A stretch of 64,000 bases of DNA, taken from assembly GCF_009469605.1 (NCBI RefSeq), contig NZ_SSXU01000010.1, positions 1 to 64,000 on the forward strand, in the 5' to 3' direction. Below the pieces are notes generated by a model. It saw only the letters and a list, made by a program, of their open reading frames with translations. It searched no databases and was not told where the DNA came from. Numbering within the stretch: position 1 is the stretch's first letter; each line of letters opens with the position of its first letter. Origin of the DNA: Zoogloea sp. 1C4. Its GTDB lineage: Bacteria > Pseudomonadota > Gammaproteobacteria > Burkholderiales > Rhodocyclaceae. This document shows, one piece after another, positions 16,345 through 50,668 of the stretch. The position numbers were made by a program, and so were the translations under genes.

Positions 16345-17316
16345 TTAGTCGCGGAGCGGGTAGAACTTCAGCTCCAGCGTGCGGTTGAACAGTTCCGGCT
16401 TGTCGGGGCGCGGCAGCGGGCTCGACTTCTGGATGGCGCGTTCGATGGCGCCGTCGAGCTGGGCGTTGCCGGTGGAGCGCTTGAGGCGCACCTCGATCAC
16501 CGAGCCGTCGGGGAGCTGATCCACGTAGAACAGCGCGAAGGGGTCGCCGCTGACGCCCGGCGGCAGCACGATGTTGCCCTTCACCTTGGCGCGGATCTTC
16601 TCGATGTAGGCCTCGATGGCCTTGTTGCGGGCGGCGCTGGCTTTGGCGCCGGCGACCCGGGCGAGTTCTTCCTGGATCTGGCGGGACTGGCTGGCGTTCT
16701 CGCTGTCATGGGCCATCAGCTCACGCATCCGGCGGTCTTCGAGTTCGCGGGCGCGGGCGGCGGAGGCCTTGGCTTCCTTGTCGGCCTTGGCCTGGTCGAT
16801 GCGGGCCTGCTCGGCGCGGGCTTTGGCTTCGGCCTTCGGATCGGGTTTGGGCTCAGGCTTGGGCTCGGGTTTCTTCGGCTCGGGCTTGGGTTCCGGCTTT
16901 TTGGGTTCCGGTTTCGGCTCGGGCTTCTTGGGCTCAGGCTTGGGTTCGGGCTTCTTCGGCTCGGGCTTGACGATTTCCTTCACCGGCTTGGGCGGTGGCG
17001 GCTTCTTGGGCTCGGGCGCCTTGATGGCGATATCCGGCTGCTTGCGCGGCGGCGGGGTGGGCGCGGGTTCGTCTTCGGGCTCGGGCGGAGGCGGCGGCGC
17101 CGGGCGGGATTCGGCCGGCGGGGCGGGGGGCGGAGGCGGGGCGACGCGGGCGGCCGGCGGCGGCGCGCTCACCAGTTCGACCTCGACGGCGTCGGGCAGG
17201 CGGTTCTGCCAGCGCACGCCATAGAACAGGAACAGACCGAGCAGGACGTGGACAAGCGCAGCCAGCGCTGCCGACGACCACTTGCCCCGGTCATTACCGG
17301 ACAGCAAAGGTCTCAT
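16345..17316 (-). CDS. tolA: TolA energy-transducing protein
   Basis: A 323-residue protein spanning from inner membrane to outer membrane that couples the TolQR motor to TolB/Pal. One membrane helix lies at about 15-35. A long proline-rich region (50-165) includes Pro/Lys/Glu repeats at about 117-160, followed by a charged Ala-rich helix (165-215). A compact C-terminal domain (about 225-323) contains NIVLPPGVSGDPFALFYVDQLPDGSV-like sequence, the TolA_C/TonB-like domain. In E. coli the spacer is mostly Ala/Lys helix; here much of it is predicted polyproline. Its ATG overlaps tolR by four bases. Confidence 0.92.
   Translation of the reverse strand: MRPLLSGNDRGKWSSAALAALVHVLLGLFLFYGVRWQNRLPDAVEVELVSAPPPAARVAPPPPPAPPAESRPAPPPPPEPEDEPAPTPPPRKQPDIAIKAPEPKKPPPPKPVKEIVKPEPKKPEPKPEPKKPEPKPEPKKPEPKPEPKKPEPKPEPKPDPKAEAKARAEQARIDQAKADKEAKASAARARELEDRRMRELMAHDSENASQSRQIQEELARVAGAKASAARNKAIEAYIEKIRAKVKGNIVLPPGVSGDPFALFYVDQLPDGSVIEVRLKRSTGNAQLDGAIERAIQKSSPLPRPDKPELFNRTLELKFYPLRD
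16837..16971 (-). repeat. In-gene 30-bp-type repeat coding Pro-Glu-Pro-Lys units in tolA
   Basis: Tandem, slightly degenerate repeats inside tolA encode alternating PEPKK and PEPKP pentapeptides (residues about 117-160). The stretch would form a stiff polyproline-type rod across the periplasm. Such low-complexity repeats can change copy number by slippage. Confidence 0.75.
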
Positions 17317-48437: not shown

Positions 48438-49355
48438 ATGAATCACCCCGGCGATCGTCTCGGGCTCCTGTTCGCCGTGCTCGGCGCGGTGGGCTTCTCG
48501 TTCAAGGCCATCCTCATCAAGCTGGCCTACCCTTACGGCGTCGACGCCGTGACCCTGCTTGCCCTGCGCATGGGGCTGTCGCTGCCCTTCTTCCTGGCCC
48601 TGGGCTTTGCCGACGGCCGGCGCCGCCAGCACGCGAAGCTGTCGGGGCGGGATCTGGCGTTGATGGCCGGGCTGGGCTTTACCGGCTACTACATGGCCAG
48701 TTATCTGGATTTCCTCGGGCTGCAGTACATCTCGGCGGCGCTGGAGCGGCTGATCCTGTTTGCCTACCCCACCCTGGTGGTGGTGTTCTCGGCGCTGTTC
48801 CTGGGCAAGCCGATCACCCGCCGGGCGCTGGCCTGCATCGGGCTGTGCTACGCGGGCATCGCGCTGGCGGTGGCCCATGATCTCCACATCGCCGGCAGCG
48901 CCAGGGACGTGTGGATCGGCGGCGGGCTGGTGTTCGGCAGCGCGGTGTCGTATGCGCTGTACCTGATGGGCAACGGCCAGGCGGTGGTGCGCCTGGGCGC
49001 GGCGCGGGTGACCGCCTGGGCGAGCGCCATCGCCTGTGTGCTGTGCCTCGGCCACTTTGCCGCCACCCGGCCCCTGGGCCTGCTGCTGGTTCAGCCGGCG
49101 CCGGTGATGGGGCTGGCGGTGGCGATGGCGCTGTTCTCCACGGTGCTGCCGGTGTGGATGGTGTCGGAGGCGATCCGTCGCCTGGGCGCCGGGCCGGTGT
49201 CGCTGATCGGCACCCTCGGCCCGGTGGTGACGCTCTTCCTGGGCTGGCTGATCCTCGCCGAGCCGATCGGGCTGTTCCAGATCCTGGGCGGGGCGCTGGT
49301 GGTGTCGGGGGTGGTGCTGGTGGGTCGCAAGGGGCCGCGTTCATCTCGGGCTTGA
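48438..49355 (+). CDS. EamA/DMT-family transporter
   Basis: A 305-residue inner-membrane protein with ten predicted helices in two EamA halves (about 10-145 and 155-295), a drug/metabolite transporter family member. Landmarks: GAVGFSFKAILIKLAY, YISAALERLILFAYPTLVVVF and the second-half LGPVVTLFLGWLILAEPIGLFQILGGALVVSGVVL. The last six codons (RSSRA and stop) are part of a unit of the neighbouring 21-bp repeat array, so the C-terminus has been altered or supplied by the repeat. Substrate unknown. Confidence 0.9.
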   Translation: MNHPGDRLGLLFAVLGAVGFSFKAILIKLAYPYGVDAVTLLALRMGLSLPFFLALGFADGRRRQHAKLSGRDLALMAGLGFTGYYMASYLDFLGLQYISAALERLILFAYPTLVVVFSALFLGKPITRRALACIGLCYAGIALAVAHDLHIAGSARDVWIGGGLVFGSAVSYALYLMGNGQAVVRLGAARVTAWASAIACVLCLGHFAATRPLGLLLVQPAPVMGLAVAMALFSTVLPVWMVSEAIRRLGAGPVSLIGTLGPVVTLFLGWLILAEPIGLFQILGGALVVSGVVLVGRKGPRSSRA

Positions 49356-49735
49356 ACTGGGCTCCCTTCAGGGGGAGTGTACTCCGCCCGGAGATGAACA
49401 AGTTCAGGTCGGAGGGAAACCGGTTCAGGTTCGAGATGAACTTGTTCATCTTCGGGTTGAACCAGTTCAAGTTGGCGTTGAACTTCTTCATCTTTGACTT
49501 GAAGCGGTTCAAGTTTCGGATGAACCCGTTCAAGTCCAGGATGAACGAGTTCAAGTTTGAGATGAACCGGTTTAAGTCCGGGATGAACTCGTTCAAGTCC
49601 GAGGCGAACAAGTTCAGGTTGGAGGTGAACCCGTTCATCTCAAAGCTGAACTCGCTCCGCTTTCACCCCAACCCGCCTCGGGGCGCGGGTTTTCCGTAGC
49701 TGCGGCGGGTAGCCGCGGCATGCGATGCTTGGGCC
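49356..49735. other. Gene-free region between eamA and dedA, mostly repeat array
   Basis: 380 bases. Apart from a short spacer (49358-49390), most of it is the tandem array at 49391-49651. After the array comes about 85 bases with a short G+C-rich inverted stretch near 49672-49690 and then the dedA start. No ribosome site or promoter of note. Confidence 0.6.
49391..49651. repeat. 21-bp tandem palindromic array B
   Basis: Twelve contiguous 21-base units (49400-49651) preceded by a half unit (49391-49399). The consensus is GTTCAAGTCCGGGATGAAC plus two variable bases. GTTCA and TGAAC arms make every unit a near-palindrome, so both strands look alike, and units join as GAAC-NN-GTTC. Because 21 is a multiple of three the array is open on both strands and reads as seven-residue units: M-N-x-F-K-S-E type on the plus strand (an ATG at 49394 opens 101 codons to 49699) and L-N-x-F-I-S-N type on the minus strand. 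No clear ribosome site serves either frame. A further unit lies at 49337-49357 over the eamA stop. Confidence 0.9.
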
Positions 49736-50668
49736 ATGGACATCGCCCAGCTCCGCCAGACCCTCGAACACGATGCGGTCGCCCTCGTCTTCATGAACGT
49801 GCTGCTCCAGCAGATCGGCCTGCCGGTGCCGGCGGTGCCGACGCTGCTGGTGGCCGGCAGCCTGGCGGCCAGCCCGTGGGCGCTGGGCAAGGTGCTGGCG
49901 GCGGCGATCCTCGCCTCGGTGATTGCGGATGCGATCTGGTATGCCGCGGGGCGGCGCTTTGGCTACCGGGTGCTGGCCGGGCTGTGCCGGTTGTCGATCA
50001 ACCCGGCCTCGTGCGTGAGCCAGACGGAGGCGCGCTTCGTGCGCTGGGGGCTGTCGTCGCTGGTGGTGGCGAAGTTCGTGCCGGGTTTTTCGACCGTGGC
50101 GCCGCCGATCGCCGGGGCGCTGCGCATGGCGCGGATGGGTTTTCTGGTGGCGGCGGCGGTGGGCGCGGGTTTGTGGGCCGGGCTGGCGCTGGGCGCCGGG
50201 TGGTTGATGAAGGACACGGTGCAGGCCGTGATCGACGGGCTGGAGACCCACGCCGGCCGGGCGGTGGGGGTGGCGCTGGGGCTGGCGGCGCTCTGGCTGG
50301 GCTGGAAGCTGTGGCAGAAATACCGCTTCCGCCGCCTGCAGGTGCCGATGGTGACGCCGGCGGACCTGCTGGCCCAGATCGACGCCGGGGTGCGTCCGCT
50401 GATCCTCGATCTGCGCGGCGCCTCGATGGTGGCCGAGCTGGGCCCCGTCCCCGGCGCGTGGGTGGCCGAGCACGACAGGCTGGCGGATGTCCTCGGTGAC
50501 TGGCCGAAGGACGCGCCCATCGTCACCCTGTGCGCCTGCCCCGAGGACGCCGGGGCTATCCAGGCGGCGCGGCGCCTGCTGGGCGAGGGTTATCTGTCGG
50601 TACGGGTGCTGGCCGGGGGTTATGAAGCCTGGCTCGCCGCCGGCGGGCTGGATCAGCCCGAACGCTAA
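49736..50668 (+). CDS. DedA-family membrane protein fused to a rhodanese domain
   Basis: A 310-residue protein. N-terminal DedA/VTT region (about 15-200) with five or six membrane segments, including the conserved VPGFSTVAPPIAGALRMARMGF. A C-terminal rhodanese-like domain (about 205-305) follows, with LILDLRGASMVAELGPVPGA and the active-site loop CACPEDAGA carrying the catalytic Cys. DedA proteins help lipid or proton movement; the rhodanese part may handle sulfur. Its last four bases overlap the convergent pirin gene. ATG 49736 follows the array. Confidence 0.88.
   Translation: MDIAQLRQTLEHDAVALVFMNVLLQQIGLPVPAVPTLLVAGSLAASPWALGKVLAAAILASVIADAIWYAAGRRFGYRVLAGLCRLSINPASCVSQTEARFVRWGLSSLVVAKFVPGFSTVAPPIAGALRMARMGFLVAAAVGAGLWAGLALGAGWLMKDTVQAVIDGLETHAGRAVGVALGLAALWLGWKLWQKYRFRRLQVPMVTPADLLAQIDAGVRPLILDLRGASMVAELGPVPGAWVAEHDRLADVLGDWPKDAPIVTLCACPEDAGAIQAARRLLGEGYLSVRVLAGGYEAWLAAGGLDQPER

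Follow-up and report, generated by a model that had tools for sequence, protein, structure and literature searches.

The window array and its neighbours

Within the window, by which we mean the whole 64-kb stretch of Zoogloea DNA that was analysed, an array of 21-bp units lies between two genes read on the plus strand:

48438-49355, plus strand: EamA-family transporter gene (Pfam EamA, E 5.4e-32), which ends 28 bp before the array; a neighbour, outside the system
49340-49360, no strand: lone degenerate outlying unit, overlapping the EamA gene stop codon and one base off the array phase (found by eye, with no tool score)
49383-49675, no strand: orphan 21-bp array of about 14 units, each a core TGAACNNGTTCA plus a 9-bp linker, in a single phase end to end (TRF, cyclic profile and unit anatomy)
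49736-50668, plus strand: VTT-domain/rhodanese gene (Pfam VTT_dom 4.4e-10, Rhodanese 8.6e-8), which starts 61 bp after the array; a neighbour, outside the system

TRF places the array at 49391-49637, with period 21 and 11.8 copies. A cyclic 21-column profile, in which start, end and phase shift were all free and whose training set was partly the window array itself, returns one unbroken 293-bp segment (49383-49675) with zero phase shifts, and no second segment of at least 60 bp at 20 bits in the 64 kb. The clean tandem array with GTTCA and TGAAC arms reported in a first-pass annotation is thus real; in place of its twelve units at 49400-49651 we count about 14. Its dismissal of CRISPR also stands, as the array is built from a single 21-bp unit without unique spacers: the units are contiguous, degenerate and 21 bp long, which does not match the CRISPR layout of identical repeats and unique spacers.

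A two-unit pattern with up to three mismatches gave 37 forward matches in the window's own genome versus 1 with a reversed control, and the window array is more than chance would produce. Five arrays of the TGAAC type are present in this genome, at C9 (the window's), C118, C96, C58 and C129. In the Zoogloea genome G014 the orthologous locus carries an array at the same place, with part of its units altogether different. Elsewhere in the window, at 16834-16969, TRF also detects a degenerate tandem repeat of period 27/54 (score up to 171) that has nothing to do with the 21-bp array.

Coding potential

Could the array be a gene? The first-pass annotation had read both strands as open and had offered a repeat gene as one of three options, beside a phased protein-binding array and a structural DNA element. 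Three features speak for a coiled-coil protein: neither heptad frame is interrupted along most of the window array, hydrophobic residues recur at a/d spacing and every third base is G or C; the openness, however, follows from the 21-bp period being stop-poor, and it is lost in some homologues. Over 28 homologous arrays the heptad frames contain 17 stops on each strand, and 8 of the 28 arrays are interrupted in both frames; one of these eight is the window array's ortholog in G014. In addition, the most variable positions of the unit, the two central bases of the core (NN), are the first two bases of one codon in the heptad frame. A conserved repeat gene is ruled out by the arrays stopped in both frames, and we regard a coiled-coil protein encoded in a heptad frame as extremely improbable.

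Distribution of TGAAC-type arrays

With one mismatch allowed, the two-unit pattern matched 8 of 60 genomes, all of them Zoogloea and the window's own among them, and none of the 37 genomes outside the genus. A search for the 21-mer family in related genomes, as the first-pass annotation had proposed, was productive: a 63-position sequence profile detects a TGAAC-type array in 14 of 23 Zoogloea genomes. The same profile hit 2 of 369 genomes of a class sample (the window's own and one weak case) and 3 of 147 around a Chthoniobacteraceae MAG (that MAG included, one weak). An exact scan of GTDB contigs yielded 24 stretches; by eye, multi-unit intergenic arrays outside Zoogloea are L061, in the Chthoniobacteraceae MAG, and L067, in a Cyclobacteriaceae MAG, two others (L053, L068) are more uniform repeats, and most of the rest are isolated pairs. 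The presence of an array at a given locus varies between species, and orphan arrays occur in every orientation relative to their neighbours.

Some arrays have repeated surroundings. Several arrays in the Zoogloea genomes G019-G021 (L136, L139, L208 and L209) lie close to a dispersed repeat that is about 260-300 bp long and whose copies are 87-91% identical; L136 has two of them. At L127 and L210 (both in G019), with L135, L142 and L153, the array is present at two places in one genome together with some 150 bp of each flank, as if a larger element carried the array. In the Anaerolineae MAG MGR_bin408 three contigs (L048, L055, L056) share a short stretch, probably a repeated element, in which three TGAAC/GTTCA-like cores lie 21 bp apart.

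A partner gene family

When the genes nearest to the arrays were clustered, one family proved common to seven loci from three phyla (Zoogloea, the Verrucomicrobiota MAG and the Bacteroidota MAG), and in 7/7 loci the array lies 3' of the family gene, 45-136 bp away. The family protein has about 158 residues and is predicted to be all-helical; in single comparisons with the Zoogloea protein L155, those of L061 and L067 gave E-values of 2e-9 and 2e-13. Their arrays resemble the Zoogloea ones because the search used TGAAC. The first-pass annotation had stated that the array is not explained by its neighbours, which holds for the window copy; the 64-kb window contains no partner-family gene. At other loci, arrays of this kind share a constant neighbour.

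Significant matches to the family are absent from Pfam, NCBIfam, PHROGs, PADLOC and PDB sequences. An AlphaFold2 model of L155 built from 47 rows (pLDDT 86.8, pTM 0.67) is all-helical, with a long helix at residues 74-126 and a disordered tail; it has no significant match among solved or viral structures and matches no known DNA-binding protein fold. Across 59 proteins the mean net charge is +2.7 for the last 25 residues and -5.1 for the remainder, so that the C-terminal tail is basic. We found no description of such a protein or array in a literature search conducted mostly outside subscription journals. Neither of the two matches a known kind in the sequence libraries or literature searched.

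The family is multi-copy, with 9 matches in the window's own genome and 12 in G008, and 15 of the 23 Zoogloea genomes contain it. The gene and a TGAAC-type array are either both there (12 genomes) or both missing (6) in 18 of the 23, while 3 have the gene only and 2 the array only (Fisher p 0.023, kinship ignored). Another genome, G382, holds many family gene copies (L299, L303, L307, L310, L312, L314, L316, L320); several are partial matches, frame-split or with a stop, and most still have a 21-periodic array behind them.

Periodicity behind family genes

We also went in the reverse direction and scored the 21-periodicity of the DNA behind family genes irrespective of its sequence, using lags 12-39 and the 58 genes with at least 300 bp downstream; orthologues of related species are taken separately in these counts. 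Lag 21 was the best downstream of 50 of the 58 genes, upstream of 3 of 57 and in 12 of 104 600-bp tiles of the window. Without the eight genes found through arrays the downstream count is 42 of 50. The 50 include a Thiodictyon plasmid gene whose signal lies inside the next annotated gene; its periodicity score is 30 and its array unconvincing. A periodicity score of at least 45 was reached downstream in 44 of 57 cases (36 of 49 without the eight array-found genes), upstream in 2 of 56 and in 2 of 57 tiles, and 21 was the best period among 18-24 in 55 of 57. Fourteen of the 58 family genes fall below the score limit or are short of room (13 misses of 57). Most Zoogloea family genes tested are followed by palindromic units at a spacing of exactly 21 bp, as a rule 25-250 bp from the stop codon.

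The signal recurred in three gammaproteobacterial genomes outside this set, downstream at 10 of 14 loci, several of which are similar gene fragments of one genome, and upstream at 3 of 14; L317, which is the L299 gene, was not counted, and L319, the second half of the L303 gene, is not given. In Bacteroidota, where 30 of 44 places were sampled, the counts are 15 of 30 downstream (14 of 29 without one locus found through its array) and 4 of 30 upstream. From these two samples it follows that the gene-array link, weaker outside Zoogloea, spans several lineages but does not hold for every member. At L274 (G008:C52) the best lag behind the family gene is 22 rather than 21 (0.63), which may reflect a different period or a repeat that has no relation to the family arrays.

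Paralogue-specific palindromes

Different paralogues have different 12-bp palindromes behind the gene, set in the same 21-bp frame. Five of the seven testable genes in the window's own genome reach the score limit (C31, C71, C47, C61 and C75), and C51 and C107 lie below it; the C66 gene is too near a contig end, and a weak ninth match (C47:19065) is outside the tested genes. The palindromes are of the TGCA type at C31, TGCAnCGATGCA at C71, CTTGCGCGCAAG at C47 and GGCnnCGnnGCC at C61, while C75 has an AT-rich unit that reaches the score limit and fails the lag test.

Over 44 arrays, the correlation between array profiles has a median of 0.24-0.26 at 30-60% protein identity, which equals background, and of 0.87 at 90% identity or more, where 11/11 pairs exceed 0.6. 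Close proteins may also have unlike palindromes, as in L261/L252, whose proteins are 74% identical, and in L245/L246. The protein tree unites the Zoogloea genes that have TGAAC arrays, relatives with altered palindromes and the own-genome C66 protein in one clade (support 0.996), and the place of the C66 protein inside the TGAAC clade is weakly supported.

Unit anatomy and covariation

The anatomy of the TGAAC-class unit was derived from 242 units of 28 Zoogloea arrays, phased by hand; orthologues are included, so the units are not independent samples. The arms carry 0.8-1.3 bits per column, the 2-bp centre nearly zero and the linker a moderate amount, and the information content is mirror-symmetric about two dyads. 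The first-pass annotation had taken the nine-base centre as the palindrome axis, and this is one of the two; the second lies 10.5 bp or one helical turn away, at the two central bases of TGAACNNGTTCA. The 9-bp linker also has dyad symmetry of its own and is conserved, at 0.73 bits per column vs 0.97 in the arms (26 arrays). The central NN is not free: among the 242 units TA occurs once vs 13.1 expected, perhaps through avoidance of CTAG, and AA occurs 27 times vs 11.5 expected. Centre dinucleotides in excess are AA, TT and CG.

These features bear on whether the array might act as RNA, being transcribed behind the gene into a long imperfect hairpin, or into processed RNAs or guides as in TIGR-Tas, and bound by the protein. 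Folded as RNA, the window array has a z of -8.2, with 0 of 200 shuffles as stable, and our covariation test is blind to long-range pairing between units. On the other hand, once one genome's two altered-arm arrays are omitted, covariation between partner columns of the core dyad is not strong (largest z 2.6); a residual z of 3.6 persists, unexplained, for columns 10/24 across the other dyad. Adjacent columns inside one half-site are strongly linked. Weak covariation across the core dyad together with linked columns within half-sites broadly agrees with half-sites being recognised in double-stranded DNA, rather than with a locally paired stem. The symmetric, conserved linker is unlike a guide, and the orphan arrays' lack of a fixed orientation to their neighbours also speaks against a transcribed element. 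We consider an RNA function unlikely. Taking the covariation and folding analyses together, a structural DNA or RNA element, the former proposed in the first-pass annotation, is weakened.

Selection on the arrays

In all 11 gene-linked ortholog pairs computed, the differing sites number 133/1261 in arms, 166/1134 in linkers, 41/256 at NN and 390/2312 in flanks (arms vs flanks, p 2e-7; arms vs linker and NN, p 9e-4). Inside these arrays there are 21 gaps, 7 of them multiples of 21, compared with 114 in the flanks (1 multiple), a count that is inflated because the flank alignments are poor in places. Gene-linked arrays thus have rarer indels than their flanks, and more slowly changing arms.

A second, mainly orphan set comprises the 18 of 21 pairs with an array identity of at least 0.75; it includes two gene-linked pairs, and its pairs share sequences and are not independent. 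Here arms differ at 183/1513 sites (0.121), NN at 66/305 and flanks at 626/4367 (0.143), with p 0.03 for arms vs flanks. These rates indicate that constraint on orphan arrays, the window's among them, is weaker or less even, and individual ones, possibly including the window's, may be decaying. That the arrays are relics, as the first-pass annotation had allowed, is accordingly disfavoured for the gene-linked arrays and less so for orphan ones, which are less constrained.

A functionless minisatellite growing by slippage would account for the gaps between orthologous arrays, which over all 21 pairs are multiples of 21 in 11 of 41 cases inside and 3 of 102 in the flanks, and for the orphan arrays of some pairs that evolve almost at the flank rate. 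It does not account for the constant gene partner and side, for paralogue-specific palindromes or for the few indels and slow arms of gene-linked arrays, and we judge such neutral growth very unlikely.

Comparison with known systems

Four known systems are compared here through excerpts of the cited sources. The layout is closest to sopB-sopC of the F plasmid, where the gene for the binding protein is followed by twelve repeats of 43 bp, or about four turns, and every repeat contains a 16-bp inverted repeat (PMC9178275). As in ParBF-parSF (PMC9178275), an inverted-repeat array directly follows the gene, and binding as a dimer, known for F, is predicted here. The similarity is one of layout alone, seen in the 50 of 58 downstream regions with lag 21 best and in the palindromic cores. 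The period differs from that of sopABC (21, not 43), and so does the presence of many paralogues with different sites per chromosome. The family was rejected as ParB by a domain test despite the layout: at E 0.1, the 47 members scanned had no ParB family among their Pfam matches. No ParA-type ATPase is annotated at the single annotated family locus.

In pSM19035 omega-parS, a ribbon-helix-helix protein binds non-palindromic 7-bp sites that overlap promoters (PMC9499535). Contiguous short sites and a cooperative protein array, predicted in our case, are common to both, and 21 equals three heptads; our units, unlike those promoter sites, are palindromic, 21 bp long and located behind the gene.

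TIGR loci have 5-15 units with locus-specific repeats, up- or downstream of a protein gene, alternating with 9-nt spacers (PMC12045711). A short-repeat array beside a small protein gene, a locus-specific repeat and 9-base stretches in between are shared features, and this likeness adds to the case for RNA. TIGR-Tas differs in having a pair of repeats that alternate, spacers free of constraint, 36-nt RNAs and a Nop domain (PMC12045711). Alternating repeats with variable spacers and a unit of about 36 are absent from our arrays, in which the period is 21 (55 of 57), the single repeat symmetric and the linker conserved and symmetric. Nop has no Pfam match among 47 members and is not listed by structure; Nop domains of this kind diverge strongly.

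REPtrons combine a TnpA-REP (RAYT) gene with its own type of palindrome, the REP sequence, and dispersed intergenic copies (PMC8266576). Likewise, cognate palindromes occur beside our gene and elsewhere in Zoogloea, here for the TGAAC class. The arrays may belong to a selfish or formerly mobile module whose protein spreads or maintains palindromes, with orphan arrays as the dispersed products. The gene with cognate palindromes and gene-free copies, the variable presence of arrays between species, and a Verrucomicrobiota genome with two gene-plus-array copies (gene 88% identical in DNA, surroundings different) all suit such a module. However, REPs are tagged stem-loops that act as single strands with an HUH enzyme (PMC8266576), whereas our palindromes are symmetric, double-stranded and held in a strict 21-bp register. 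No transposase family, HUH (Y1) included, and no other catalytic domain was detected among the Pfam matches of 47 members, the protein is predicted to be all-helical, and a GTAG-type tag is absent from the consensus units. Selection on phase and arms suggests, moreover, that the arrays themselves are used. We consider a selfish module unlikely.

A predicted protein-DNA array system

The reading that we favour, with moderate confidence, is that the window array is a gene-free member of an array class belonging to the family of helical proteins of about 158 residues, and that each family protein would act as a dimer bound to the array of its own gene. Of the three options in the first-pass annotation it corresponds to the phased protein-binding array, which gains from the two-turn phase, the dyad-symmetric units, the partner family, arms that evolve more slowly than flanks and half-sites that vary largely independently; binding itself is a prediction. 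Together with the basic tail, the dyad symmetry, phasing and paralogue specificity of the arrays are best read as signs of sequence-specific DNA binding as a dimer.

We infer a mechanism in which the family protein would bind double-stranded DNA at the 12-bp core as a homodimer, with each half-site read separately. One dimer per two helical turns would place successive dimers on one face of the DNA and could build a cooperative nucleoprotein stretch. As paralogues diverge, protein and palindrome would change together. The partner of the window array likely lies on another contig: the C66 family protein, of the TGAAC clade, would bind the five TGAAC arrays of its genome in trans.

What might such stretches do? 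Core copies are not enriched before the family gene, and with the arrays lying behind it, the data do not point to a plain autorepressor. A centromere-like or chromosome-marking scaffold, with the layout of F-plasmid sopB-sopC, is favoured over simple autoregulation and is the least certain step of the proposal. More broadly, we lean slightly towards a widely scattered and so far undescribed class of gene-array modules, with one fold and many paralogues per genome, each paired with a 21-bp palindromic array orthogonal to the others, and with further, dispersed arrays that are recognised in trans.

If this is true, one genome may contain several mutually insulated protein-DNA address systems whose specificity can switch fast, as between L261 and L252. 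Because gene and array adjoin, natural protein-site pairs can be read off by sequence, and such a new recognition system, with its many natural pairs, would be a resource for learning a protein-DNA recognition code and for building orthogonal DNA-binding tools. A class of intergenic repeats that seem orphaned would gain an explanation, and it would become a testable matter why one chromosome keeps several insulated array systems.
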